Below, piece by piece: positions 7,435 through 64,000 of a stretch of DNA of 64,000 nucleotides (position 1 is its first letter; each line of letters opens with the position of its first letter). The stretch lies in the NCBI GenBank assembly GCA_947247005.1, contig OX365945.1, positions 18,172,501 to 18,236,500 of the forward strand, given 5' to 3'. A program made the translations under genes and the position numbers. This DNA comes from Spisula solida (Eukaryota; Mollusca; Bivalvia; Venerida; Mactridae). Under the pieces are notes generated by a model. It made no database searches and had not been told where the DNA came from. It worked only from the letters and a program-made list of their open reading frames with translations.

Positions 7435-9541
7435 CTAAAAGACAAAACTACCTTGAACCAGTTCAACATCACGCTTTCAAACAAGTTCCAACTTCTAGGA
7501 CAAATAGGCGATATAGAAGAACAATGGGAGAATTTAAGAGAAAATATCACTTCAACCTGTGAGGAAACTCTAGGAAAAAGGAAAATTCAGCACAAAGAAT
7601 GGATATCTCCAGAAACCTTAAGAATAATCCAAGAGAGGAAAAAGAAAAAAGAAATTATAAACAGAAGCAGAACCAGAAGAGAAAAAGCTGATGCCCAAGA
7701 ATCTTACAACCAAACACACAAAGAAGTAAGACAAAATGTAAGGAAAGACAGAAGAGCGTATATTGACAACCTTGCTTCACAGGCAGAAGAAGCTGCAAAC
7801 AAAAGGAACATGAAGGAATTATACGACACCACCAAAAAACTTGCGGGAAACATCAACCATAATAGCCAGCAAATTAAAGATAAAGATGGTATAACTATCA
7901 CCATACTCGAAGACCAGCTTAAACGCTGGACAGAACACTTTAAGGAACTGCTGAACAGACCATCCCCAACGGAAAAACCAAACATTACTAGAGCTGCAGA
8001 AGAACTCAGAATAAATTGTAATAAACCTACCAAGACAGAGATCAAACCAGCCATCAGAAAGCTAAAGACAGGAAAAGCAGCTGGACCAGATAATATACCT
8101 GCTGAGGCACTCAAAGCAAATGTAGACCTTTCAACAAACATGCTACATAAACTACTCGGAGACATCTGGGAAAGTGAAACTATGCCTCAATAATTGAACG
8201 AGGGACTTATCATCAAGATTCCAAAGAAAGGTGACCTAAGAGAATGTAAAAAATACAGAGGAATAACATTAGTATCAGTGGTAGGCAAAGTACTGAACAG
8301 AATAATTCTAATGCGACTACAAAAAACAGTAGATTCAAAACTGAGAGACCAACAGGCAGGTTTCAGGAAAGACAGAAGCTGTGTCGACCAAATAGCAACT
8401 CTTAGAATTATTATTGAACAATCAATAGAATGGAACACATCTGTTTACTTGAATTTTATTGACTTTGAGAAAGCCTTTGATAGCTTAGACAGAGAATCAT
8501 TGTGGCTGCTAATGGAACACCATGGTATTCCAGGAAAGATGATCAACATCATCCGCAACTCCTATAACAACATGACTTGTAGAGTACTGCATGAAGGTAG
8601 ACTGTCAGGCACTTTTCATGTTACCACAGGAGTGAAGCAAGGCTGTCTTCTATCACCGTCCTCTTTCTTCTCGCCATAGACTGGATAATGAGGGAATGTA
8701 CAGAAGGGAAAAGAAACGGAATACAGTGGACTCTGTGGGAACAGCTAGACGATCTAGACTTTGCGGATGACATCGCACTTTTGTCCAGCACACACCAACA
8801 AATGCAGGAAAAATCAACACTTCTAAATGCATCTTCAACCAAACTTGGATTAAGACCTAACATAGCCAAGACTAAAGTGATGAAAATAAAATGCAACAAC
8901 ATCCAGCAAATCAAAATTGATGGCAAAAACATAGACAAAGTAGACTCCTTTACCTATCTAGGAAGTATCGTAGACAACCAAGGTGGAACTGATGCCGATG
9001 TAAAATCTAGAATAAACAAAGCCAGAGTAATCTTCAATATATTAAGAAATACATGGACTTCCAGAAACCTATCCAGAAAGACAAAAATAAAGATCTTCAA
9101 CTCTAATGTGAAATCAGTCCTCTTATATGGATCAGAAACATGGAGAACTACCAAAGCCATGCTAACCAGACTCCAGTGCTTCATCAACTACTGTTTAAGG
9201 AGAATATTAAACATCAACTGGACAGACAGAGTGCGTAATGAAGACCTCTGGAAAATCACCAACCAAGAACCTATCAACATGGAGATAAGAAGACGCAAAT
9301 GGGGATGGATAGGACACACGCTACGAAAGCCAAATGAACACATCACAAAACAGGCCCTAAAATGGAACCCTCAAGGTAGAAGGAAAAGGGGCGCCCACGT
9401 AACACCTGGCGAAGAAATGTCGAGGCAGAAATGAAAGATAGTGGTAACACCTGGAACTCAATCCAACAAACAGCAGGAAACAGAGTCAGATGGAGGGAAT
9501 TCGTCAATGGCCTATGCTCCCCAGCGGAGCAAAGGGCCTAA
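7435..9541 (+). pseudogene. Non-LTR reverse transcriptase, broken
   Basis: In order: a coiled, lysine-rich linker (7500-7900); RT motif LKTGKAAGPDNIPAEALKA (~8065); KYRGITLVSVVGKVLNRI (~8254); the catalytic Asp block FIDFEKAFDSLDRESLW (~8455); GVKQGCLLSP (~8628); and FADDIALLSS (~8759). The C-terminal domain runs to GLCSPAEQRA and stop near 9541. Three breaks are visible: an in-frame TAA at 8191-8193, a frameshift just after the GCLLSP motif (~8660) and a frameshift near 9395 after GRRKRG. The upstream ATG at 7396 that opens into this frame belongs to the helicase leader, not to the retroposon. The gene is inactive. Confidence 0.9.
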
Positions 9542-35500: not shown

Positions 35501-37603
35501 TCTTAAATTTACTCACTACACTACTCGCAAACTGGACGCTACTCATTGTACTCTACCTTCAAATTAGACGCTTCTCGTTGTACTCTACCTTCAAACTGGA
35601 CGCTACTCATTGTACTCTATCTTCAATCTGGACGCTACTCGTTGTTCTCTACCTTCAAACTGGACGCTACTCATTGTACACTACCTTCAAACTGGACGCT
35701 ACTCATTGTACTCTACATTATCTTAAATTTACTCACTACACTACTCGCAAACTGGACGCTAATCATTGCACTCGACCTTCAAACTGGACGCTTCTCATTG
35801 TACTCTTCCTTCAAACTGAACGCTACTCATTGTACTCTTCCTTCAAACTGAACGCTACTCATTGTACACTACCTTCAAATTGTACTCTACCTTTAAACTG
35901 AACGCTACTCATTGTACACTACCTTCAAACTGGACGCTACTCATTGTACTCTACCTTCAAACTGAACGCTACTCATTGTACTCGACCTTCAAACTGGACG
36001 CTACTCATTGTACACAACCTTCAAACTGGACGCTTCTCATTGTACTCTACCTTCAAACTGGACGCTACCCATTGTACACTACCTTCAAACTGGACGCTAC
36101 CCATTGTACTCTACCTTCAAACTGGACGCTTCTCATTGTACACAACCTTCAAACTGGACGCTACCCATTGTACTCTACCTTCAAACTGGACGCTACTCAT
36201 TGTACACAACCTTCAAACTGGACGCTTCTCATTGTACTCTACCTTCAAACTGGACGCTACCCATTGTACACTACCTTCAAACTGGACGCTACTCATTGTA
36301 CTCTACCTTCAAACTGGACGCTACTCATTGTACTCTACCTTCAAACTGAACGCTACTCATTGTACTCGACCTTCAAACTGGACGCTACTCATTGTACACA
36401 ACCTTCAAACTGGACGCTTCTCATTGTACTCTACCTTCAAACTGGACGCTACCCATTGTACTCTACCTTCAAACTGGACGCTTCTCATTGTACACAACCT
36501 TCAAACTGGACGCTACCCATTGTACTCTACCTTCAAACTGGACGCTACTCATTGTACACAACCTTCAAACTGGACGCTTCTCATTGTACTCTACCTTCAA
36601 ACTGGACGCTACCCATTGTACACTACCTTCAAACTGGACGCTACTCATTGTACTCTACCTTCAAACTGGACGCTTCTCATTGTACACTACCTTCACACGG
36701 GACGCTACCCATTGTACTCTACCTTCAAACTGGACGCTACCCATTGTACACTACCTTCAAACTGGACGCTACCCATTGTACACTACCTTCAAACTGGACG
36801 CTACCCATTGTACACTACCTTCAAACTGGACGCTTCTCATTGTACTCTACCTTCAAACTGGACGCTACCCATTGTACACTACCTTCAAACTGGACGCTAC
36901 CCATTGTACACTACCTTCAAACTGGACGCTACTCATTGTACTCTACCTTCAAACTGGACGCTTCTCATTGTACATTACCTTCGCACGGGACGCTACTGAC
37001 TGTATACTACTCATCAATGGACAACTACAAACTGAACACAACCACCAACCACAACTACTCATTGTAAATTACCTACAAAATGAGTCCAATTCTACCTTCT
37101 TTACACGCGAACTGACCAATACTCATTGTTCACTACTCAACGACTGAACAATACTCAATGTACTTTACATTTACAGCTGATGCCTACTCTACAGTCCTTT
37201 ACACGCGAACTGACCAATACTCATTGTTCACTTCCCAACGAGTGAACATTGCTTACTGTACTTTACTCGCAATCTGAACAGCACGCCCTGTTTTCTACTC
37301 TATGAACACCGACGGAACGTTATCCAAATTAACCAAGTAAAGATTCGTACCTGTAATTTTCTCCCCTGGTTTGTATCGCACCGTACCTACTTCGATCTTG
37401 TACGGATTTGATACTACATTTCCTGGCATTATAATTCCTTCATGAGTTGCGTTAATTCTACGTGTATGAAATGTTGACGGGTCCTTGCACGAGAATTCAG
37501 GGGCTCCATGACTGAATGAGGCCACTGGCGAAACTATAGCCAAAACACACACACAATAGTTGAATAACATTCTAAACGATTTTTGTTTTAATAATTTTAT
37601 CAA
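32532..37603 (-). CDS. Reeler-domain secreted protein with His-rich and Thr-rich tail
   Basis: Four exons with GT-AG borders and consistent phase: 37603-37351, 34513-34249, 33734-33649 and 33091-32532, predicting ~387 residues. Exon 1 has a signal peptide (MLFNYCVCVLAIVSPVASFS) and the reeler start SHGAPEFSCKDPSTFHTRRI. Exon 2 has GFFLQAI, FGTFENITTDEHPTSCQTFG and GGITHSN. Exon 3 ends the domain with ATGVLDYYTYWTDI. Exon 4 carries TITGRFTPTAAWYRWLQYIR, an H/D run (EHDHHHHHHDHDHHHDHSHS) and ~110 residues rich in TTTRKPT-type repeats, likely O-glycosylated. Reeler proteins include insect defence proteins and ferric-reductase-like proteins. A metal-binding, mucin-like secreted role is inferred. 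The phase match across all introns makes it the best host gene here. A weak TATA-like stretch lies ~40 bp upstream. Confidence 0.88.
34514..35519. other. Part of reeler intron 1
   Basis: AT-rich intron sequence. It includes a ~50-bp duplicated stretch (CGTCGGCATCTTCATTGAAA at 35048 and 35095). Confidence 0.6.
35520..36990. repeat. 32-bp minisatellite in reeler intron 1 (~45 copies)
   Basis: The unit is CTACTCATTGTACTCTACCT followed by TCAAACTGGACG, 32 bp. Variants are TACACTACC, TACACAACC, CTTCTC and CTACCC. Higher-order blocks of several units recur, implying unequal exchange of multi-unit blocks. Because 32 is not a multiple of 3 and the unit lacks stops, all plus frames stay open for hundreds of codons. 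Those frames are not genes. Confidence 0.95.
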
Positions 37604-51444: not shown

Positions 51445-53560
51445 ATGATACCTCTAAGGAACTCCGGTGTTAGAAGATCAAAAATTGAAAATTCTCTTAA
51501 ATGGTTAAAAACACATAACCCTGCATACAAAGATATAACAATTTCTCATGACAGGCTCCAATTGCTGCCTGTTGATGGCACATCGGACTCCATTGAAACT
51601 ATTCAAATTCCAGAAAATACTGAACAAATAAACGATAGAGGTCCTGCTCGTCATCAGACAGAAATATCCAGTGTTGAGGATTGCAACACACAGTCTGGTG
51701 TACTTCCAGACAATTTAGTTTAGTTGAGTCTGTTGTAAAAGATGTGCTTGGTGAGAATGCAAATGTCACCGTAAACAAACGTGGTATTACAACAATACCC
51801 TGGCCAACAAGAGGAAATGTTTCACTGTCTGAGTATACAACTCAGCATGTTTTCACATTGACATTTCCTTCCTTGTTTCCTTATGGAAAGGGTGATTATC
51901 ACATAAATAGACCAAAAACATGTTGAATTTGGTATGTCAGCTGTCCATCCAGCTGGTAGTGATGAACATGGCAATCCTCGTAAAGATCTCTGGCCACCAC
52001 CGGAGGGAACAGGTCCTCCCCCCCACCTGAAGACAAAAACCCTTTGGTTACTACTAATGGATGTTTCTGATTCTCAATCTTCCATACTTGAAGATCATCT
52101 TTTACTTACCAATCGTTTCAATATATATAAATGTTCAGATTATTGTCTCAAACCGGATAAACATAAACCATCTCTAAAAAATGTAGAATGGAATTTGGGA
52201 CTGAGACTAGTCCAGGAAAACCACTGAGTTGTATTCCCGCTATAATTAGGGATAAAAACTCATGCCTTAGACTTGAAATGACAAGAGATCACCCATCTTT
52301 AGTGCAGCATTCGCAATATCACACTCAAGGATGGCGTGCGAATGGTAATATCTCATTAATAGTGTCACGTAGTCATCCGGACAATCCATCTGTGGACGAA
52401 ATAATGGCAACAGAAAGATACATTACTGGGTATGCCTGTAAAGGAAATCAGACAAGTGCCGCTATTTCAGATTTATTTTCTGATGTGGTTAACTTCTCTA
52501 CTGAAACAACCAGTAATAGTGCTCAATCTGTTAGTACAAAATTCCTTATGAACACTGTAAAAAGAGACATATCCTCAGTTGAAGCGTCATATGAACTTGG
52601 TAGAATTCCTCTTTTTAGGTCCAGTCATGTCTTTAAAACTATTAGTCTTTCGGGTTTTCGCGTATTGGAAAAGGATGGTCAAGTTATTACTAAATGTACA
52701 CCCATAGACAAATACTTGTCGAGAGACAAAAATGATAATTCTTCATTTTACTCATATGTATGTACAGGAAATACGGTCCCTGTTTTCCCATGCAATAAAT
52801 ACACAGGCCTCTTGGCGCTTAAATGAAGATTATTGTAAAATCATGCTTTTGTTACATTGGCCGAATTGGAGACTTATTTCAGACATAAAACCTGACTGTT
52901 GTTCATGGGTACAAGCGTTTAATGACTTCCTAGAAACAGAAATTTGTCCAAACTTTGTAAAGGCTGGTGTTCAACGTGCTGAAAGTCATAGTCACATTGA
53001 CAGCCCTGAATCAGAAGACCCTTCTGCCTGATTGCATGGAAGTTTTGCAACCTTGCGTTAAATTTAATTGTGATGTTCAGGATGTTGACTTTGACGACAT
53101 CCCTGAAATCGATTTACACAGTATGAATCAAGATCAGCTTTTTGCTTTTAATATAATCATGGACAATTTGCAAACGTTCACTAATGATAATCATTCAAAT
53201 CATGATTAGTTGTGTCTGGAACTGCTGGATCTGGTAAAAGTCATTTGATAAAATGTTTAGTGAAAACTATGCGGATACATTGTCAGTCTAACACATTTGT
53301 TCAGGTGATATGTCCAACAGGAAACCGTGCCAATCTTATTGGAGGTGTAACACTACATAGTTTTTTAAAGATTCCCACCCATTCTCCTGGTCAGGAAATG
53401 AGTGCACCACACGGATTGACAGCAGAAACTTTACAGTCTAATTTAAAGTCTGTCAAAGTATTACTTGTTGATGAGCGTTCTTTGATTGGTTTAACTACTT
53501 TGGGATGGATGGAATTTATGTGTAGGTATGGGGCGGATAATGGAAATAGTTCTAATATGT
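51445..53560 (+). pseudogene. Helitron-type / PIF1-like helicase protein, multiply broken
   Basis: Blocks in order: LTFPSLFPYGKGDYHINRP (~51855); EFGMSAVHPAGSDEHGNPRK (~51926); LLMDVSDSQSSILEDHLLLT (~52050); LEMTRDHPSLVQHSQYHTQG (~52275); RYITGYACKGNQTSAA (~52417); FLMNTVKRDISSVEASYELG (~52541); DLHSMNQDQLFAFNIIMDNL (~53114); Walker A GTAGSGKS (~53219); Walker B VLLVDERSLIGL (~53460). The order matches large Helitron-like helicase proteins of invertebrates. The segment between the FPYGKGD and MSAVHPAG blocks, where HUH nickase motifs would lie, is missing. At least five frameshifts occur (near 51715, 51928, 52200, 52820 and 53030-53210). Homology ends abruptly at ~53560, where the LTR-like sequence begins. 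Confidence 0.8.
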
Positions 53561-54810
53561 TGTGAGGCATGGCCTCATACGATAAGAATATCACACACTT
53601 GGCATCAATAAGTCTTATTTAGCTCACAACGCTGTTGTGCTATTTTTAGTTACAATGACATACATGTACATTTTTAGAGTTTGGATGCCGCTTTTGTCCA
53701 TATTATGCTATGTCATGACATGTTATTATAGAGATAGTTAGATATTTATTAGATTTAACTTATTAGATTTAACTATTTACCTCAACAATCACATGCTAGG
53801 TCGCTGATGTATCATAATACATGTATTTGGCTTTGTGTTCGTAGAATTCTGGAAAATGTCACTATTGTCCGCCATATTTGTTTTTAACTTCCGGTAATAA
53901 TTAATCTCTAACCTTCGAAGTCAGTTTATATTTTATTTGTACCTTAAATTATTATACGTTGGTACTTCATAATAGAATGGTATGTTTTTATGTTAGAGGT
54001 AAATTAGTAATGGTATCTTAATGTTCAGTCATGTTTACCGGCTCCTAGGCCAAGTTTTATTCTCTAAGCTCATTTGCATACCAAATTCGTTTTAGCATAC
54101 CAACTTGCTCATTAGTTTTTTTCACATTGCCACTGTCCTCTTAGCTGACCGGCTGCGTTATTTGAGCTGTCCTAGATTTACGTAAGTATTTGTATCTGAA
54201 AGTTAATTCAACTTAAAGTCTGTATTGCAGCTTTATTTCTACTATTTACTATTTATCATAGGTCATTAATAATAACGATATTTTGACTTTTGGCGGTCTT
54301 GAACTTGCGCGTCGTCAGTCCGTGTCGTTAGATCGGGTTTCGATTTAGATATTTAGCATTTAGTGCAGTCTTAGTATAAGTTATTTAGTATCACATTTTG
54401 GTCCTATTATACCTCTCCTCTCGTTGTTAAGCCCTTTTACCAAATAAATTTATCTTAAGCCAAAAGGAACGTCGTCTGTACTCTTTGAATTGATTATTAT
54501 CTTGGCATTTGTCACGGTCTCACACAGTTGTTAGCCGCTATCTGGTCTCTTGTAGCCAGTTTAGCCACTCTCAAGCTGTGATACACGCTACCAGTGTATT
54601 TAACCAGTTTTCGACCAGGCTATCGGTCCGAGTTGTTGTTAGACTTATGTCTGTACTCTTGAGCATATCACATATTGATTGCTGTTGTAGCACCACAGGT
54701 GTTTGTGCACACACATATCTTGCACACTGGTACTTGAGTGCCTTTCAGTACATTCAGCACAGTCACTCAGTGCACGCACATACAGTACACACACACGCAC
54801 GGGTGTTACA
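53561..54810 (+). promoter_or_regulatory. LTR-like leader (candidate 5' LTR)
   Basis: Starts TGTGAGGCATGG exactly where the Helitron helicase loses homology. Ends GGGTGTTACA, four bases before a primer-binding-site-like sequence. It holds AATAAA (54443-54448) followed by a GT/T-rich stretch, as in an R/U5 region. These are LTR hallmarks (TG...CA ends, polyadenylation signal, adjacent primer site). No second copy occurs before the window end, so LTR identity is inferred. It may instead be a virus or host promoter. Confidence 0.45.
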
Positions 54811-54814
54811 AAAT

Positions 54815-54863
54815 TGGTGGCAGCGGTGGGATACGAACCCACGCCTCCGAAGAGACTGGTGCC
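54815..54863 (-). ncRNA. Antisense 3' part of tRNA-Leu / primer-binding-site-like sequence
   Basis: TGGTGGCAGCGGTGGGAT begins a 49-nt stretch. Its reverse complement is the 3' part of a tRNA-Leu: variable arm with TCTTCGG, T arm GTGGGTTCGTATCCCAC, acceptor and CCA. The genomic TGG matches the post-transcriptional CCA, so it comes from a mature tRNA. An LTR primer-binding site is normally 12-18 nt. Here complementarity extends through the variable arm, which is unusual. Confidence 0.7.
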
Positions 54864-54874
54864 ACAAAAACACA

Positions 54875-56041
54875 ATGACAGATCACGCCAGATTTAACTT
54901 CGGGGTACACGCGGAAGACTTTGTCATACCGCAAACAGGTTACGTACTATTACCATCAAACGAAATGTGTGATTTACAACCACAAGACACAGACATAACA
55001 GCAGACCAAGCAGAGGCACTAAAATTAGCACCACAGACACTACAAAATAGAGTAGAACAAAAATTGTCAGACGTAGGTTACACAATGAAAGAACATAAAA
55101 TAAACTTAACAGACACAGTATCAGTACAAACAGAAACAATAGTAGAAGGGGCAAACGACAGGACAAACAATACACATGATGGTATGGCACCAGAAGACAT
55201 AGGTAATGAGTATCCAGAAATGTATGAAGAATACTTAAGTATGATAGGGTTTACAAAAAAGGAAATACCACTACTTAGAAATATAATGACAGGCCTAGAT
55301 GACAATGATTTAAGTCAGTATGTAACACCACCGCAAGGTGATGGGGTCAAATGGGATGATGCAAACGATAGTATGATAACCAGTAAAGAGGTAATACAAA
55401 AAGATATACAAGACAACCCAATATTAGATGACGACGGCAACGCATTAGGTAAGCCATTTACACCAGTAACAGTGTTAGTACCAGAGATACACAGCCTAGA
55501 ACCAGACACCAGCCAAGCAGAAATAGAAACAGTAAATACGAGGTTCCTAAACCTAAGAGACACATGGGTAACAACATTAGGAGCAGCAAAACCACCGGTG
55601 AGAACAAGAATAGACCCAACAGGAAGAACAAGGTATTATACCCCATACCCAGTAATGAAAAGTAACGGTGAAAGTTACGGTGCGGCCTTTAAGAGTAAGG
55701 ATGGTAAACAGATGGTACGTATATTTAACCTGGACAAAGTTAAGGAGTTAAATGCTAAAGACTTAAAACCAAAGTTAGAGGCAATTAACAGAGTAGAAGT
55801 CCTAAAACGAAATGTAAACGAACATAAAAGGTTAGGTCTTGTCTATAAAACTGTACCAGGTACTTTACGTTCAACCACTTTAACCACTCCTTTACAGGTA
55901 GACGGCCAAACATACGGCAAACCACTTCCGGGTAAAAGGCAACTCGACGCTGAATTCGAAGACCTCAAGGACGATCTGTTCAACGATACCTTCAGTCCCA
56001 TCAGAACTACAAAGAGAACCAGAACAGGCACAAGATACTAG
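54875..56041 (+). CDS. Virus-like ORF1, unknown (388 aa)
   Basis: First ATG after the primer-like site. The frame is open upstream but has no other sensible start. The product is acidic in the N-terminal half (FVIPQTGYVLLPSNEMCDLQ; EEYLSMIGFTKKEIPLLRNI) and basic at the end (PIRTTKRTRTGTRY). There is no signal peptide or membrane segment, and I recognise no domain. Third codon positions are strongly A-biased to about 55650 and less so afterwards. The stop is 46 nt before ORF2. Position ahead of a replication gene in a compact cluster suggests a structural or DNA-binding protein. A retroviral Gag is possible from its place after the primer site, but no zinc knuckle is seen. Confidence 0.7.
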   Translation: MTDHARFNFGVHAEDFVIPQTGYVLLPSNEMCDLQPQDTDITADQAEALKLAPQTLQNRVEQKLSDVGYTMKEHKINLTDTVSVQTETIVEGANDRTNNTHDGMAPEDIGNEYPEMYEEYLSMIGFTKKEIPLLRNIMTGLDDNDLSQYVTPPQGDGVKWDDANDSMITSKEVIQKDIQDNPILDDDGNALGKPFTPVTVLVPEIHSLEPDTSQAEIETVNTRFLNLRDTWVTTLGAAKPPVRTRIDPTGRTRYYTPYPVMKSNGESYGAAFKSKDGKQMVRIFNLDKVKELNAKDLKPKLEAINRVEVLKRNVNEHKRLGLVYKTVPGTLRSTTLTTPLQVDGQTYGKPLPGKRQLDAEFEDLKDDLFNDTFSPIRTTKRTRTGTRY

Positions 56042-56087
56042 AATGTACATGTGGAAGAATAACTACAAGAAGAAAGAGCAGTAAGTT

Positions 56088-57317
56088 ATGACTATATATA
56101 TACCATTTCACAATATTATAGATACTTTGTTACAGAATACTAACCGCATCGAAGAAACAGACAAGGTCGAGAACCACAGATTTAATAACGATGTGGCTAA
56201 CACTGCGATTATTTCTGGGGCGGTGTTGCAATGGCATATGAACATTATGCATAACCCTAAGAATACGTTTATCACGGTACATCAATGGATACAGGAAACA
56301 CCAACTGGAGATTGCAATGTTTCCGACTTCTTTGGTTTAAAACATGAGCATTCGTTAACTATACCTAACCACGTAGCTATATATACACCGGGACCGGATG
56401 TATTGGTAACCAGACATGAGAATCATAACCAGGCAATAAGATCATTATTTGATGCATATAAATATGTGGAAGACTATTTGAAGAGTATAACTCAAGGTAA
56501 GAGTACTGATACAACCATACATGTTATGACCATGAATTTCAGGTTAGGTAAAAAGTTAGACACGGGGCATAAGATAGCATTACTAACAGTAGATACACCT
56601 TATACCATAGGCTATAACGTGTATGACTGGAAATATATTACTGATTTAAAACCAAATTTAGATGAAACGTTCGATTATGCGTACGAATTAAGAGTGTCAG
56701 TTCATGCAAACATGATAACAAAAACATTCCAAACAATATACTCAATTAATCAAGAACCAGGCACAAAGACATTAGAAGGTGTACTAGTAATGGCATACTT
56801 ACTAGATAGTGTAGAACCAGAACTGTCATTTCCGTTTCAAAAATGGCCCGAGAAAGAACTAAGTGATATAGTAGTTAGTATAGATCAATTTATAACGCAT
56901 GAAGACAATAGAATAGATACGAAAGTAAGAAGCATGAGATGGTTGTATAGGAACCATAACTTAACGATAGCACAAATATTACCATTAATAACACCACAGC
57001 ACCTGGCTCCGGTGATACTAGAAATAATACTAGAAAAGGCAAACGAACATTTCAAACAAGTAATAGATATACCAGGAGAGTTGCCCGATAGATTTGATAT
57101 AGATGAGGCATGGTATACAATAGATGGTGATGAGACTGGGGTAAAAAAACCAGTAGATAATAGAAGTTGTAAAGAGAAAGAGGAAGATAAGGGTAAAATG
57201 GCATGGCAGGCATTAGTAGCATGTGAATCAGCATTTAATTGGCCGAAATTCCCAATATGGCCGTTTGGTTGGCCAAGTCTACCGGACTTACCAGATAATG
57301 AAGACTTACCTAGTTGA
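56088..57317 (+). CDS. Virus-like ORF2, unknown (409 aa)
   Basis: Starts at ATG 56088 and is uninterrupted. Mixed alpha/beta composition with many aromatic residues (VLQWHMNIMHNPKNTFITVH; YTIGYNVYDWKYITDLKPNL; FPFQKWPEKELSDIVVSIDQ). The C-terminus is Trp/Pro-rich (WPKFPIWPFGWPSLPDLPDN) after a Lys/Glu linker. No motif known to me. The size and fold-like composition would suit a capsid or other structural protein, but that is inference. It overlaps ORF3 by 20 nt, a compact viral arrangement. The second half is very A-rich. Confidence 0.7.
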   Translation: MTIYIPFHNIIDTLLQNTNRIEETDKVENHRFNNDVANTAIISGAVLQWHMNIMHNPKNTFITVHQWIQETPTGDCNVSDFFGLKHEHSLTIPNHVAIYTPGPDVLVTRHENHNQAIRSLFDAYKYVEDYLKSITQGKSTDTTIHVMTMNFRLGKKLDTGHKIALLTVDTPYTIGYNVYDWKYITDLKPNLDETFDYAYELRVSVHANMITKTFQTIYSINQEPGTKTLEGVLVMAYLLDSVEPELSFPFQKWPEKELSDIVVSIDQFITHEDNRIDTKVRSMRWLYRNHNLTIAQILPLITPQHLAPVILEIILEKANEHFKQVIDIPGELPDRFDIDEAWYTIDGDETGVKKPVDNRSCKEKEEDKGKMAWQALVACESAFNWPKFPIWPFGWPSLPDLPDNEDLPS

Positions 57318-58026
57318 AGTAGTAGTAGTAGTGAAAGAGATGGAATGTGGGTGTAAGGAAGAATGGGAAAAGTTTAGAGTAAAATGGAATAAGTTAGAGG
57401 TATACTTAAAGAAAATGAATATGTACTTAGAGAGTAGAAAAACACATGACGAAACAGAACGCAAAGAACCAATAGATACAAATGACAAAGAGGAAAGCAC
57501 AAACACAAAAACAAACATAGAATACTGTTGCAAAGACTTAAAAACATATGTAGACAAACAAGACACAAAATATTACAATCAAAGCAAAGGAACATTCCTA
57601 ATGAAAACATACAAAACAGAAACAGATAAGACAATAGCATTCATGAAAGCAGAAATAGCAACACTACAGAGAGACTCAAATGCACAATTCACAAAGATAA
57701 TGAGTCTAAGAACAATAGAACAAGCACATGTAGACAGAATAACAAAAATAATAGACACAATAACAGGACAAGTAACAAGCACATTCATAGATGAAATAAA
57801 GAAAAAATTAGGATTTGACACAACAGTAAATAAGGTAAACAACTTAACAGAGAAATACCAACAACTAGACTTACACAATGTATTACAAGAAGGTCTAAGA
57901 CAAGCAACACTAAAAATGATAGAAAATAACACAGAAATAATAAAAAATATAACAGGAACTGTCACTCAATTAAACGACAAATTTGCGAGTATGGATTTAA
58001 TACCTACTTATCAATTCAATATATAA
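57298..58026 (+). CDS. Virus-like ORF3, coiled-coil protein (242 aa)
   Basis: I chose ATG 57298 (MKTYLVEVVVVV), which overlaps the end of ORF2. The body is rich in K/E/T/I/N with heptad-like spacing (KWNKLEVYLKKMNMYLESR; FMKAEIATLQRDSNAQFTKI; VNKVNNLTEKYQQLDLHNVL), predicting long coiled coils. A CC pair (IEYCCKDL) and a C-x-C near the start are its only cysteines. It may be a fibre-like or scaffolding protein. DNA composition is extreme (about half A, few T) to ~57955, then returns to average for the last 70 nt. It ends 8 nt before the replication gene. Confidence 0.65.
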   Translation: MKTYLVEVVVVVKEMECGCKEEWEKFRVKWNKLEVYLKKMNMYLESRKTHDETERKEPIDTNDKEESTNTKTNIEYCCKDLKTYVDKQDTKYYNQSKGTFLMKTYKTETDKTIAFMKAEIATLQRDSNAQFTKIMSLRTIEQAHVDRITKIIDTITGQVTSTFIDEIKKKLGFDTTVNKVNNLTEKYQQLDLHNVLQEGLRQATLKMIENNTEIIKNITGTVTQLNDKFASMDLIPTYQFNI

Positions 58027-58034
58027 TTGCAGGG

Positions 58035-59583
58035 ATGAAAGTCCGGAGCAAGTTTTGCTGCCTGCAGCAATTCAGTGACAAAGATTGTTATAGTATTGTA
58101 GTCACGAACCTACCCGAGTCTATTACGGTCGAAACTATTCAGAGTTTTATTTACCAGGTTGATGAACATGATACGATTAAGAGAACCGATCGTAACACTC
58201 CGCTAGGAAGATACGCGACTGAAAAGATTTAAACGGTGGTAGATATACACCAACAATGAAGTTTCAGACTCCTCTTGATATTAACGAGAGAAATAAGAAG
58301 AGCGCAATGGTGCTCAATTCATTTAAGAAGTTCCTTAATACGCACCCATGTTCGTTGTGGTGGCATAACGGGGAGACGGATGACTCGTGTTCATTCCATG
58401 GAATGCACATTCATATGATCGTTGCGAAGGAGAGTATACATGATCAAATGGGTCGTGGAAGGGAGCTATCCATAAAGAGGGGGGATTGGTCAAATGTCAA
58501 AGGGTCAAACACATGGAAGGTCTGATGAGTTATATGGCGAAACCACCGAGGTGTTTTTGGGGCTGTAATAACGCCCAAATGATTGACCGGATAATTGACA
58601 GTCAAATGACAATCGATGAACCGATGGCGTATGATGAAAGTATAGAGAGTATTGAGAGTAACGTGCCCACTGGGGCCTTGTACCTCCAAAGAGACTTATG
58701 CAACCGTTTACTAGTACGGAAACTGTTACGTTCGCAGAGGCCAATAAAAATCAGACAACGGATAAGGCTCATACAGTATCGAAAACCGCGGAAAAGGTAG
58801 CCACCATGATGGCATATATGCAGCGTTACAAGTCCACGGATAGTGTGGATATCTTACGTAAGATCTATAACAACGGTGACGAAGCCGAACTCAGAGATTG
58901 GAGGAACCTGAACTTGGTACCCATGATCCAGAGTATTAAAAGTCAAGCTATATTAGAGATTAAAATGCTCCGCGAATTCAACAATCAGTCCTACACTGAT
59001 TTGCTTATAGATTATAGAGAATTACATGACTGTTAGCGAGACAGCAACGTTATTTTTAAGGTGGTGCGACGATCAGGGGATTGTGCCAGGGGAGTTCTTT
59101 CTGAAATTATATAAGATTCGAAACAAGGAAGACCCCCAAAAAAATACATTTATATTGCACGGGCAGTCGAACGCGGGTAATGCCTTAACACCCATACGCA
59201 ACGTAGTAGGACAAACGGTACAGTCTACGGACTTTAGTTGGCAACGCTGTGTCAACAAAGAAATAATTGTGATCCCCGAATTAACAATAACCAAGCCCGA
59301 AGGCATGGAAGTATTCAAGAAAATTACCGAAGGCCAACCCACAACGATTAATATAAAAAATAAGGAGCCGGTAATCTTGTAACGCACGCCGATATTGATA
59401 CAATGCAAAACGCTGCCATGGCAGCATTTCAACGCTGAGTCAAATGCCTGTAAAAACCGTATTCTTGGTTATTACAATCTACACACAAGCGAAATGTTGA
59501 AAGATAAAAACGCGCCAAACCCGGAAATGTTTGGTACCGTGTTTAAAGCAATGAGGGATGAGATATTAAGACTAGGAGACTAA
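58035..59583 (+). pseudogene. Parvovirus-NS1-like replication protein (HUH nickase + SF3 helicase), broken
   Basis: Role in the family: nick the viral origin and unwind DNA for rolling-circle or rolling-hairpin replication. Visible parts: N-terminal block from ATG 58035; HUH motif GMHIHMIV (HIH at 58406-58414); tyrosine motif SYMAKPPR (~58528-58551), where the nicking Tyr is expected; a linker; then an SF3 core at 59026-59380 with FILHGQSNAGNAL at the Walker A site. The usual Walker A Lys is Asn here, so ATP binding is probably lost. EIIVIPEL (Walker B position) and EVFKKITEGQPTTINIKNKE follow. The C-terminal part continues at ~59385 in another frame. At least five frame changes (near 58225, 58500, 58700, 59030 and 59380) make it a pseudogene. 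Nearest relatives are probably parvovirus/bidnavirus-type proteins. Confidence 0.8.
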
Positions 59584-59737
59584 AAATAACGATTATAACC
59601 GGTTATACATATCCGAAATCAATGACACTCTGAACGACCTCGCAACCATAAGGGTAGGATTAAGACGCAGTCTAGAAGCGATCGCTGGAATTAAACACAG
59701 CGAAGCCACAATTCATTTGAATGTGATAAGTGATTAC

Positions 59738-60688
59738 CGGATGCTAGAAAGACTCACGCCATGCATGACAAAGAAGGGAGACGAACAGTTGCAAGAGCTA
59801 GGGGCGTATTTGTTAGCGATCAGTGAGAGGAGTGGTAATGATTATTGGGTGGACATATCAGAGATGAAAAAGCCAGTGTTGAGGCATGTGGACACAGCCG
59901 AGGAAGTGCAGACTTACGAATTGAGTAGTGACTATAACTACATTAAGCAGGCAAAGATAAATATTCAGATGATGTTGTCGAAGATTAAAGATTACCCAGA
60001 GTACACCAGCTTCACTAACGGAGAAATGAACAATATGAAAGCAAAGGTAAAGATAGCATTAAGTAACATCGCCCGTATCCTACTTTTCTACGAGGTAAAA
60101 GCCCCCATGGTAACGCCAGCGCTTGTATTGACCGAGGATGAGTTTCAGGCTGGAATAACCAGTGCGTCTACATCTAAAAGAAAATATGAGAGCGAAGCAG
60201 ACGATGAAGATAGTACAGACGGAGAGGTGAGACAGAAGTTGATGAAGAAAATGAGGAAATCTCTAAAAAAGATTGTAAACTTCGCCACCCCCTCTGTAGT
60301 ACCAAATATAGAGTTAAATTGTGTAAAGGTGGACATGACAGACGGAGACTCAGATAATCCCATTGAAATAATGGACACGGAATCAGAGTATGAGTTTGAA
60401 GAGTCAACAGGGCTGCCGTTAACAGGGGGACCTCTTAGTCAACGTGTAATCGACGATCTTATGAGCTACGCCTTTAGCGGAAATCAAGCGTGTATGGAGT
60501 AAGTTGAAGATATATACCCTGGATTAACGACTCAACCAGAGATATACCTACGACATGAAGAAATTGATAGTGATGAGGTGGATGAAGCCAGACAAAACGA
60601 AGATAATGCAGCTCTAGAGAGACATATGGAGCAGAGAGACATTGATAAAGCAAAAAATATAAATTATTGCAATTTAAATGTTCTGTGA
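59738..60688 (+). pseudogene. Virus-like ORF5, acidic protein with one in-frame stop
   Basis: The frame is open from ~59570, right after the replication gene. The first ATG is at 59738 (MLERLTPCMTKKGDEQLQEL). Helical middle (YIKQAKINIQMMLSKIKDYP), then a basic/acidic tail (SKRKYESEADDEDSTDGEVR; KKMRKSLKKIVNFATPS; ESEYEFEESTGLPL). TAA at 60500-60502 interrupts the frame. The same frame then stays open 61 more codons (EDIYPGLTTQPEIYLRHEEI) to TGA at 60686-60688. The tail is equally acidic, so the TAA looks like a nonsense mutation or a readthrough site. Unknown family. A nuclear-localisation-like basic patch fits a regulatory role. Confidence 0.55.
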
Positions 60689-60743
60689 TATGTGAAAAAA
60701 TGTGATATATATATTATTGTTAAAGATTGTTAAAGTTGTTGTA

Positions 60744-60749
60744 AATAAA
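60744..60749 (+). promoter_or_regulatory. Polyadenylation signal AATAAA
   Basis: Lies ~56 bp after the ORF5 frame ends and ~23 bp before the 18-bp hairpin. Consistent with the 3' end of a transcript covering the upstream ORFs. Confidence 0.5.
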
Positions 60750-60771
60750 TCCAAAAAATATAAAAAAAATT

Positions 60772-60820
60772 AACCGTACAAAAATCCGGGTCTGTCCGGA
60801 TTTTTGTGCGGTTTTTTTTT
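60772..60820. terminator. 18-bp hairpin followed by a T run
   Basis: Left stem AACCGTACAAAAATCCGG (60772-60789), loop GTCTGT, right stem CCGGATTTTTGTGCGGTT (60796-60813), then seven more T. The single mismatch is a G-T wobble in RNA. The flanks are poly-A/T. It could be a transcription terminator, a replication origin stem-loop or the remnant of a terminal hairpin of a ssDNA virus. Confidence 0.7.
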
Positions 60821-60941
60821 AAACCAAATTTTTTTTCCCGCCATTTTTGTCGATTTTTGTGGATTGCCTAGAAGGACATCCGAAGGATGGCAGGCCCTGG
60901 CCGAAATGCCCTTAAGGGTTTCACGTAGTGGTACCGCGTAG

Positions 60942-62084
60942 CGGCAAAGCGTACAAACGCAGTCGGCCAAGGAATTCTCTACATGTGCTGAGCAACCGTC
61001 TAGCCCTAAGTCTCTTCTGATTTCTCCTTCTACCCTGTGTGACCATCCTACATTACCTTTACTTTTCTCTGATAAAGGTATTCTAGATTCTACTTTCCTA
61101 TCTCTTCCGGTCACACAGGATCCTGTTTCACCCTTGACTTCCGTCTTAGAAACACCATCTCATTCACCAAAACCTTACATAGCAACAGCACTCATTTCAG
61201 CACAACATGACACATATACAGAAGACATCTTAGATTTCACCACAGTACCGGACGGCCTGGAGGCCTTTTTGGCGGGCTTGCCGGAAGAATCAGCATCAAG
61301 CCGTCCGGTCACACCACAAAGCATACACAGATCACCAATAAAAGCAGCACTAAGCACCACCTTACCACCGTTGTCACTGGATTGGACCTTCCCAAATCCA
61401 AGATTGTCCATTCCAGTGCGGTATTCCACACCTTCACCACAACAGACACAGACAACGGAAGAGCAGACAACCACCACATCACCACAGACAACAGAGGAGC
61501 AGACACACAACACAATACCCATGGAAACACCCACCACACCACCACAGACAACAGAAGAGCAGACATCCACCCCACCACCACAGACAACAGAAGAGCAGAA
61601 ACCTAGCACAACTCCAGATGAACCTACAACCACACACAGAGACACACCAGACAAAATTCTTTCTATAACTTTAGAGCCATCAGTCCGAGAAAGCATAGCT
61701 GTTCGCTATCCGCCGCCGAGGACTGATGGCGGTGTACCTGTTATCCAGGGCTTAGATGCTGACAAATGTCCAGAGTTTTCACCTAGAAGGTTGAGGGAAC
61801 CTGCCAGCCGCCCATTGGACCCCAGATTATTGTTCCAGGATGTGCCCTCGAGCTTCCTAGAGAAAGCTTTGCTCAGACTAGCTGGCGTACAGAGAAAAGA
61901 TATTTTGGGCCAGACCAACTCCAATAACGTAGAAGTTCTCTTCGAAACGCAGAATTGGTCCATTACCAGGACGGAACGTATACAATTACCAGACGGACGT
62001 AGAAAAACCTACAAAACCACAGCCACTCTAGAAGACGGATGCAAGATCAGCCGCTCAACAAACACCCAAACAGAAGAAGATTAA
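60942..62084 (+). CDS. Virus-like ORF6, Thr/Pro-rich (start not found)
   Basis: Open from 60942 to TAA at 62082-62084 (380 codons), but the first ATG is at 61518, in the middle. A spliced 5' exon or a non-ATG start is therefore implied. N-terminal half: Ser/Pro/Leu-rich (HPTLPLLFSDKGILDSTF). Middle: about five copies of TTEEQT-type repeats (TTSPQTTEEQTHNT). C-terminal ~110 residues look globular (SSFLEKALLRLAGVQRKDIL; NWSITRTERIQLPDGRRKTY). The repeats suggest a flexible, possibly glycosylated or phosphorylated linker. It is the last gene of the cluster, with the same A/C-rich codons as ORF1-3 in its middle part. Function unknown. Confidence 0.5.
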   Translation, partial: RQSVQTQSAKEFSTCAEQPSSPKSLLISPSTLCDHPTLPLLFSDKGILDSTFLSLPVTQDPVSPLTSVLETPSHSPKPYIATALISAQHDTYTEDILDFTTVPDGLEAFLAGLPEESASSRPVTPQSIHRSPIKAALSTTLPPLSLDWTFPNPRLSIPVRYSTPSPQQTQTTEEQTTTTSPQTTEEQTHNTIPMETPTTPPQTTEEQTSTPPPQTTEEQKPSTTPDEPTTTHRDTPDKILSITLEPSVRESIAVRYPPPRTDGGVPVIQGLDADKCPEFSPRRLREPASRPLDPRLLFQDVPSSFLEKALLRLAGVQRKDILGQTNSNNVEVLFETQNWSITRTERIQLPDGRRKTYKTTATLEDGCKISRSTNTQTEED

Positions 62085-62431: not shown

Positions 62432-63335
62432 CATAGGTAGTAGTTTCCCACACCGTCCATTAGCACATATATATGAGCCAGTCTCCAGGAAAACCTGCTT
62501 TAATGACATTATGTAATTACTAAGTGTAACAAGATTTTGATAAAGCTCTAAATTAAGGAAAAATACATATCTATTGATTCTATTTTAAGTAATTGACCCA
62601 TATAGTACTATACCTTAACTTTAAATTTTCCTATGAATTATGTCGAAAACACATACTTCGTTGCTATGGTGACCAATTTCAGAAAAATACTCTGATTGAG
62701 AAAAACGAGGATAGAGTTGTTTAAAACAGAAGTAGCCTTTCTCTGAATGCAAACAATTTCGATTTTGATATATATGTTGAAAGGTGAAACATAATTATAG
62801 AATTTGGTACTATTTTGAACAGTTTATGTCAAGAATTAATCAAATGGTGTAATAATGAAATACTTATTTCAGTTACGTTAAATAACGTTTGAATGACGTC
62901 ACACAAAAAGCTCCGAATAGGGACTCTACAAAAACAGCTGTAATTTCCTTAAAACTCAAGATATTAACATACTTTCTTTTGCAATTTGCTTATTTAACAT
63001 TAGCCTGTAATACTGTGGAAAATCTTAAAATCATTATTTTTGTCAAAATAGCAGGTTTTCCTGGAGACTGGCTCATATGTATAAGTCTTTTCTTTTTTCG
63101 AAGGTCATTGGTAGTAGTTGTCCTGTTGTATTTTCCCACACCGTCCATTAACATATATATATATGTATAAGTCTCTTTCTTTTTCTTTTTTTTAAGGTCA
63201 TTGGTAGTAGTTGTCCTGTTGTATTTTTACACACCGTCCATTAGCATATATATATGTATAATTTTTTTTTTCTAAGGTCATTGGTAGTAGTTGTCCTGTT
63301 GTATTTTTCCACACCATCCAAATTAACATATATCT
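62432..63335. repeat. ~80-95-bp tandem repeat, interrupted by MITE copy B
   Basis: Unit: AGGTCATTGGTAGTAGTTGT, CCTGTTGTATTTT, CACACCGTCCATTA, then a (TA)n tract and TGTATAA plus a T/C-rich run. Three full units lie at 63100-63335. A first unit is split: its left part is 62432-62473 and its right part 63076-63099. Confidence 0.85.
62474..63075. mobile_element. MITE copy B, intact (602 bp)
   Basis: Inverted ends TGAGCCAGTCTCCAGGAAAA and its reverse complement. Aligns with 5084-6273 minus the nested insert, sharing TTCGTTGCTATGGTGACCAA and AAACAGCTGTAA. Comparison with neighbouring tandem units shows insertion at TA with a TA duplication (62472-62473 and 63076-63077), as for Tc1/mariner-type mobilisation. 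Non-coding. Confidence 0.9.
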
Positions 63336-64000
63336 GATTTAGAGCTATTTTTAAGAGGTGACAAACCGGTAGCTCATACATAATCACATCATTACTTATA
63401 GATTAAATTAATAAATCTTATTATAAAGTATTTCATTAAAGCTAGTATTGTCATATTAATAACATATTACAATGTGTATTATTAGTAATATATGAACTTA
63501 ATAGATTTTTTTTTTAAGTGATAAGAATTAAAATCAGTCTCGGAGCTTATGATATTTATTAATGCCACATAGTGTTCAATTTCATTATACATTTTGGGTC
63601 CTAGACTTTCTATTCGGGGGTGTATGATTCTTTTTGCTCGGTTGATTAAGTGCCTCTTTCAGTATAATAAAGTCTTTCGAACATGTCCTGGAGTGTTGCA
63701 ATAATAGCATACTATCAGAGGAAGATGGGCATCATTTGCATCTTTTCTCGAGTTTTCTTATTCCTGCACCCTAGCTATCCTTTGACTCAGCCCTGAAATT
63801 CTCTATTCCTCAATTCTCTTCAGCATATCATCTATCAAGAGATTAGTCGGCACCAATTTTTTGAAGGAACGTGGCTTTTTCTTGAGTAACTTAGTTCTGC
63901 CTCAGCAGTTAGCCTAGGGTCTCGAACAGATTGCCTTGAAATCCGAAAATGAAATATCTGCGTAGTTGGTAATATTATGTCTATATGCTTTTCAAAATGT
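63336..64000. other. No gene recognised
   Basis: AT-rich to the window end. No LTR copy or virus-like sequence was recognised here. Confidence 0.4.

Follow-up and report, generated by a model that had tools for sequence, protein, structure and literature searches.

A parvovirus-like fragment within an LTR retroelement of Spisula solida, joined to it by a partial copy of tRNA-Leu

Results

Structure of the element

The window analyzed in this work is a stretch of 64,000 nucleotides from contig OX365945.1 of the bivalve Spisula solida (positions 18,172,501 to 18,236,500). The sequence from position 53561 of this window to approximately 66440, past its end, is a single insertion: a long terminal repeat (LTR) retroelement of about 12.9 kb in which a stretch of viral sequence takes the place of most of the interior (Table 1). 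The capture of this parvovirus-like fragment by the retroelement is well supported, and the 5' join between the two carries a partial copy of a leucine transfer RNA (tRNA-Leu).

The two LTRs show 94.7% identity (blastn), with 24 substitutions and 6 gaps over 1224 compared sites and a Kimura two-parameter (K2P) distance of 0.020. A 4-bp target-site duplication, ATGT, stands directly before the 5' LTR and is repeated after the 3' LTR, which is immediately preceded by the polypurine tract GAAGGGAAGG. The helicase frame interrupted by the insertion resumes past the 3' LTR at L017:2542 (this second part was read by eye); the PIF1 match of its first part is weak (E 0.001, below the Pfam cut-off) and was assigned to the Helitron type by eye. 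Position 53561, originally predicted to be the border of a viral gene cluster, is the first base of the 5' LTR, and the borders of the insertion belong to the retroelement. No reverse transcriptase was found in ten frames of the 54.6-62.1 kb region (Pfam) or in the other listed open reading frames (ORFs; by eye), and positions 1-1300 of L017 contain no frame of 60 aa or more. Because no reverse transcriptase was found, we read the element as a non-autonomous LTR retroelement; a set of gag and pol is not present in it, and the sole trace of gag is an inverted piece. Searched against its own genome (932 Mb, the search space of all genome-wide counts given here, which are lower bounds), the LTR yielded at least 49 matches, this locus included, with 40 of 172 candidates scored.

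Table 1. Position of the features in and around the insertion (window coordinates unless stated otherwise)
Feature	Position	Strand	Remarks
PIF1-like helicase frame, Helitron type	53206..53560	+	interrupted by the insertion; last 4 bases ATGT
5' LTR	53561..54810	+	1250 bp, TG...CA
Primer-binding site extended into 3' part of tRNA-Leu	54815..54863	+	CCA to anticodon loop, 49 bases
Captured viral stretch	54866..60902 (3' limit 60902-60958)	+	starts within the VP/ORF1 gene and ends close to the right viral end
ORF1, 388 aa	54875..56041	+	C-terminal half of the 771-aa VP+ORF1 frame in L022; 77-78% identity
ORF2, 409 aa	56088..57317	+	N-terminal part of the middle gene; 76% to L018 4202-6079(-)
ORF3, 242 aa	57298..58026	+	C-terminal part of the middle gene; aligns with L018 residues 426-625, 51%
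NS1-like gene (HUH nuclease, linker, SF3 helicase, C-terminus)	58035..60502	+	in pieces; motifs, Parvo_NS1, tblastn
Hairpin, 25-nt arms, 88% complementary	60765..60820	+	viral; lies 3' of the NS1 poly(A) signal
Palindromic right-end region	60896..60970	+	60937-60968 has the opposite orientation at the equivalent position in the C4 copy
Retroelement backbone, with most of ORF6 (60942-62084)	60959..61941	+	94% to L061 on C3
MITE-like inverted-repeat element, ~615 bp	62467..63082	.	inverted ends
3' part of gag with CCHC finger, inverted	63578..63977	-	77% to L045 2116-2528, where gag is +
3' LTR	L017:1301-2541 (window coordinate 65200-66440)		beyond the window, ~1.2 kb past its end; second copy of 53561-54810

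The copy of tRNA-Leu at the 5' join

The primer-binding site starts at 54815 with TGGTGGCAGCGGTGGGAT, which is complementary to the 3' end of tRNA-Leu at 18 of 18 positions, and the complementarity does not end there. Compared to a host gene that matches the pattern below exactly (tRNA-Leu according to ARAGORN), with CCA added, positions 54815-54863 agree at 48 of 49 bases, and the agreement ends in the anticodon loop. The sole mismatch falls on base 19 from the end, which corresponds to A58. A 35-base tRNA-Leu pattern, allowing up to 2 mismatches, occurs at 36 places in the genome (29 of them exact), and the window is the only one of these with a T at A58. Neither Rfam, which gave no tRNA family match for the half tRNA, nor ARAGORN, which reported no tRNA in the window, recognizes it as a tRNA. 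For sister elements, 20 loci were cut around LTR matches; two are the LTRs of the element itself, and 5 of the other 18 show a primer-binding site. All five match its first 14 nt only (L036 with one change) and then continue with other letters, and the one sister interior that was read has gag after the primer-binding site.

The viral genes

Homology to the viral copies on C3 and C11 begins at 54866, two bases past the tRNA copy, and that to the copies on C4 and C5 further in. There is no LTR on C3 or C11 at the point matching the 5' join of the window. On C11 (L022) the viral sequence continues upstream past the equivalent of 54866 into a frame of 771 aa, and on C3 into one of 434 aa. The first 400 residues of these frames, which include the stretch GPGVSGGPGIS, look like a virion protein (VP) and may be those of a capsid protein; no capsid gene was noticed at first because this capsid-like gene is mostly missing in the window copy.

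The ORFs lie where the original prediction placed them, with a 46-nt gap, a 20-nt overlap and an 8-nt gap, and the open length of the ORF1, ORF2, ORF3 and ORF6 zones was reached by none of 1000 order-2 simulations each, the margin for the ORF6 zone being narrow (380 observed against a simulated maximum of 371). First codon positions are purine-rich in ORF1-3 and the NS1 pieces, and not in the first half of ORF6. Of the six colinear genes that had been proposed, the positions stand and the count does not: ORF2 and ORF3 are one gene split by a frameshift, as the single 625-aa frame of the L018 relative shows, NS1 is in pieces and ORF6 belongs to the retroelement. The neighbours of the replication gene had been described as unlike known families, and the profile and protein searches made here agree. 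ORF1, ORF2 and the C-terminal piece of NS1 returned nothing at E <= 1 from 5.8 billion proteins; PHROGs and NCBIfam gave weak matches only (best E 0.0047), taken for chance; and no frame other than the SF3 piece had a Pfam, NCBIfam, PHROGs or PDB match beyond chance-level scores. A relative in viral metagenomes, another suggested check, was not found in IMG/VR for ORF1, ORF2, ORF3, ORF6, the SF3, HUH and C-terminal pieces or the VP alignment, and single-sequence AlphaFold models of ORF1 and ORF2, sought for a jelly-roll fold, had predicted local distance difference test (pLDDT) scores of 36 and 35, too low to be used. With the LTR directly upstream of the open frames ORF1 and ORF2, transcripts driven by the LTR are possible. 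Selection on both, considered on account of their being open beside a broken NS1 (1 against 6 breaks, P ~0.03 by hand), was set aside as weak, ORF1 itself being truncated.

The predicted HUH (HIH), YxxK and NS1-like superfamily 3 (SF3) helicase motifs are all present in the replication gene, and its SF3 piece scores 22.3 bits against Pfam Parvo_NS1 (cut-off 20), the sole window frame above the cut-off. The gene matches the open 805-aa frame of L018 in five tblastn blocks; its reading frame changes at least five times and is also interrupted by one in-frame TAA. Its Walker A motif reads GQSNAGNA, lacking the lysine, where all four open frames examined have GKT or GKS. Because of these frame changes, the in-frame stop and the missing lysine, the window NS1 should be dead. 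Its open L018 relative on C3 carries GASNAGKT, HIH and YMSK and matches Parvo_NS1 at E 1.2e-14 and Rep40/68 of adeno-associated virus (AAV) at E 3e-4 (E 1e-10 with a four-sequence profile). The YxxK motif is also clear in L048; L023 has YLNT at that position, and a search of L049 for the pattern gave no match. NS1-like matches above the Pfam cut-off occur at 16 places in the genome, window included, and in none of 14 control genomes.

Relatives and gene order

Whole or partial copies of ORF1 and ORF2 are found on C3, C4, C5 and C11 at 59-90% identity, and a distant ORF1 relative (34%) at C2:48.5M. Together, the relatives yield the viral order VP+ORF1 (771 aa), ORF2+3 (625 aa) and NS1 (805 aa). 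This order, for which a search elsewhere had been suggested, recurs within the same genome on C3, where a single ORF2+3 frame of 625 aa is followed by the 805-aa NS1 and VP also lies upstream, with insertions between, and at C2:48.5M (L023), where three open frames of 741, 704 and 541 aa follow one another in one stretch. Judged from coordinates, the three most distant loci, C2:2.64M, C16:19.5M and C6:47.2M, likewise have VP and NS1 on one strand with VP upstream, although the VP match at C6:47.2M reaches no better than E 2e-4. VP before NS1 is thus a recurrent arrangement. The examined flanks of these three loci showed no middle gene. VP relatives occur at no fewer than six places in the genome, and sequence searches of VP against Pfam and the PDB gave nothing above chance level.

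The VP parts at L022 6336-7535(-) and L023 4890-6125(-) are 67-70% identical; NS1 is 39-40% identical between L018 and L023, and the ORF1 part of the same two lineages about 32%. Recombination of the capsid gene between two lineages is possible.

The right end of the virus and the 3' join

Viral homology stops at 60844 against the C15 copy (L063) and at 60902 against the C4 copy (L062). The hairpin at 60765-60820 is kept in L063 and, less exactly, in L062, and the region 60680-60900 folds with a z-score of -5.55. Further on, window positions 60937-60968 match the C4 copy in the opposite orientation (28 of 32, E 2e-7), an inversion that suggests a likeness to the flip and flop forms of a parvoviral end. 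At the other end of the virus, L022 on C11 carries at 7774-8239 a palindrome of two 204-nt arms (100% identical) around a 58-nt loop, 238 nt upstream of the VP frame, part of which resembles window positions 60871-60945 (72% over 76 nt, E 2.5e-6). Among the copies examined none has both ends; the ends seen suggest a virus with hairpin termini. The arms of the L022 palindrome are identical in a copy truncated in ORF2, which may reflect a very recent insertion, gene conversion or an assembly effect. Tandem repeats past the right viral end on C4 (L062 1-625) and upstream of VP on C11 (L022) are 73-84% alike and could be a shared satellite or viral flank.

Retroelement homology, to L061 (C3:12.766M, 94%), begins at 60959, and GTCGGCCAAGG is common to both at the join, where the window reads GCAGTCGGCCAAGG against GCTGTCGGCCAAGG. 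The captured piece passes an AATAAA signal (60744) by ~150 nt without a poly(A) tract and nears the viral end; because of this, viral DNA is favoured over mRNA as its source. L061 lies ~8 kb from an LTR copy (L027), and tandem repeats are common to L061 and the interior of the C8 element; L061 and L027 may form one element on C3, as judged from proximity and not from a continuous reading. At L061 the ORF6 frame is 452 aa long and starts with cysteine-histidine fingers (by our own reading; the Pfam match is weak only). ORF6 is the truncated tail of this retroelement-linked frame, and not a viral gene.

Discussion

The joins described above can be accounted for by a capture that proceeded through read-through of the tRNA primer and subsequent template switches. 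This is the best explanation of the whole, and one that we consider probable, if by no means secure. Plus-strand strong-stop DNA, comprising the LTR and then the primer-binding site, would not have been halted at the 1-methyladenosine in position 58 (m1A58) of the tRNA-Leu primer and would have been extended up to the anticodon loop, with the wrong base placed opposite A58. Its 3' end would have switched, within the VP gene, onto one strand of the viral DNA and been extended across the middle gene and NS1 until the right physical end of the viral genome was reached. A switch back to retroelement cDNA at a short stretch of matching letters would have followed, and then integration of the product into the Helitron-type helicase gene with a 4-bp target duplication. 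We infer this order of template switches and the use of viral single-stranded DNA, not mRNA, as template. In the passages of PMC13191261 on human immunodeficiency virus 1 (HIV-1), plus-strand synthesis normally halts at m1A58 of tRNA-Lys3, and the product that ends at modified base 37 is described as a minor one that cannot serve in the normal transfer. By analogy, the window might hold such a transfer-incompetent read-through product joined to viral sequence.

Several points weigh against this account. The T at A58 could stem from later mutation or from a variant tRNA gene. The tRNA-Leu-like place at C1:39.90M has a G there, so that A58 is not beyond change in tRNA genes, and our confidence was lowered slightly on this count. 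The modification of base 37 to 1-methylguanosine (m1G37) enters the argument as general background on tRNAs. According to PMC13191261, m1A58 has been reported for some mammalian tRNA-Leu species, which are not those of this host, and the passage of that source listing primer tRNAs does not include tRNA-Leu. The inverted gag piece in the interior entails at least one further rearrangement; the 3' join is placed within ~57 nt and not to a base; and the sequence does not reveal which viral strand served as template. As for the viral ends, the region 60880-60975 folds no better than shuffles (z -0.67), the terminal flip is known from a single pair of copies, and the single palindrome arm of the C3 copy counts against hairpin ends. 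Finally, the account rests on one element, no further copy with these joins having been found.

Among the alternatives, repair of a break may have joined viral DNA into a chromosomal or unintegrated cDNA copy of the retroelement, with the tRNA piece as filler or processing intermediate. The virus would then never have been copied by reverse transcriptase from its own strand, and the chimaeric element may have moved later. Both the microhomology at the 3' join and the inverted gag fragment fit end joining, and the endogenous copies elsewhere that lack this LTR at the same place show that viral DNA also enters the genome otherwise. The tRNA piece, however, is collinear with the primer-binding site, has the complement of CCA as its first bases and deviates at no base but A58, which is what reverse transcription of a primer would produce, and almost the whole interior between the primer-binding site and ORF6 has been replaced. 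We therefore deem this alternative unlikely, though it is the most serious one.

The original prediction of a captured single-stranded DNA virus lineage holds for the parvovirus-type replication gene, and not for a complete virus, the viral sequence being a fragment inside an LTR retroelement. The colinear genes and the NS1-like core accord with an integrated virus that is complete in itself and carries six genes. Nonetheless, the cluster is enclosed by an LTR pair with a target duplication, ORF6 is linked to the retroelement, and the viral relatives carry the VP part missing here and show no ORF6 match in their examined stretches; as a whole, this reading is refuted, and we give it very little credit. 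An assembly chimaera is similarly improbable: the joins are indeed known from one copy only, but the target duplication, the resumed helicase frame and the 2% LTR divergence make up one consistent insertion. Least credible is the notion that this retroelement family normally carries ORF1, ORF2 and NS1 as its own genes, since the location of the ORF1 start codon 12 nt downstream of the tRNA copy and the A-rich strand, as in many retroelements, are outweighed by the five sister elements, all of which differ directly after the primer-binding site (gag following in the one interior read), and by the occurrence of the same genes elsewhere without this LTR.

In those Parvoviridae genomes that code on one strand, the NS genes lie upstream of VP, and a VP-first order is unusual; the lineage described here does not follow that rule. 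It resembles this family in its combined HUH and SF3 replication protein, in the palindromic left end at L022 and in the inverted right-end segment of the window, and departs from it in the VP-like gene lying upstream of NS1 on the same strand and in an extra gene of 625-704 aa between them. Pieces of different copies, none of them assembled or whole, sum to ~8 kb, compared to the 4-6 kb given for Parvoviridae genomes in a passage of PMC11357303. The large 'Cah'-bearing parvoviruses, as described by Buck et al. 2024 (PMC11071296), are similar in exceeding 5 kb and in encoding, besides NS1, another candidate virion gene of helical or coiled-coil type (ORF3 here would be helical); most of those viruses are said there to seem circular, whereas the end palindromes found here point to a linear genome, a comparison made by description only. 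Parvovirus-like NS1 sequences outside known genera have likewise been found in marine molluscs by Francois et al. 2016 (PMC5013282), whose passages on them give neither gene order nor retroelement capture. A protein-primed DNA polymerase B such as that of Bidnaviridae was not found in the scanned frames, which come from partial viral copies and cover no second segment.

With its LTRs, primer-binding site and polypurine tract, and no reverse transcriptase found, the element itself is like other non-autonomous LTR retroelements. It is known that template switching can join retroelements to RNA viruses, as in the arenavirus cDNA captured in this manner by intracisternal A-particle (IAP) elements. 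Unlike that case, the virus captured here is a DNA-virus type, and the join includes a copy of the tRNA primer. If the proposed route is true, it extends template-switch capture by retroelements to DNA viruses, and a tRNA copy reaching past base 58 at a join would be a molecular signature that can be checked in other cases. The relatives, in turn, add a parvovirus-like lineage with a capsid-first order and probable hairpin ends. With 40 of 172 LTR candidates scored, the listed LTR places are all more than 1 Mb away from the other viral copies (C3, C4, C5, C11 and C15), and we see one capture and no spread.

A fuller reconstruction, which we advance tentatively and hold to be somewhat doubtful, would have reverse transcriptase copying the genome strand of a single-stranded DNA virus, with the tRNA-Leu read-through as a fossil at the join. 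The virus would belong to an undescribed family, linear, hairpin-ended and capsid-first, whose middle gene shares its first ~240 residues distantly with genes of the host genome paired ~128 kb apart, perhaps of a large integrated DNA virus. Distant relatives of the ORF2 N-terminal domain (22 of 29 matches) are 24-32% identical and mostly lie in frames of ~234 aa. Eighteen of these 22 form nine same-strand pairs, eight of them 124-132 kb apart and one 85 kb (by hand), as in C3:24368840 and 24497241, C6:8826582 and 8951988, or C19:2561775 and 2689640; such pairs could mark where a large integrated DNA virus, or a giant element, has its two ends. One unpaired relative, in L024 (C5:18377500-18387400), adjoins RING-finger-like and Fic-like frames (by eye), as in some large DNA viruses.

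The miniature inverted-repeat transposable element (MITE)-like sequence in the interior was probably inserted later, and has at least 38 further places in the genome at 93-95% identity (40 scored of 4258 candidates). Elsewhere in the window, positions 35528-37010 hold a long 32/96-bp tandem repeat array, whose long open frames are probably repeat artefacts.

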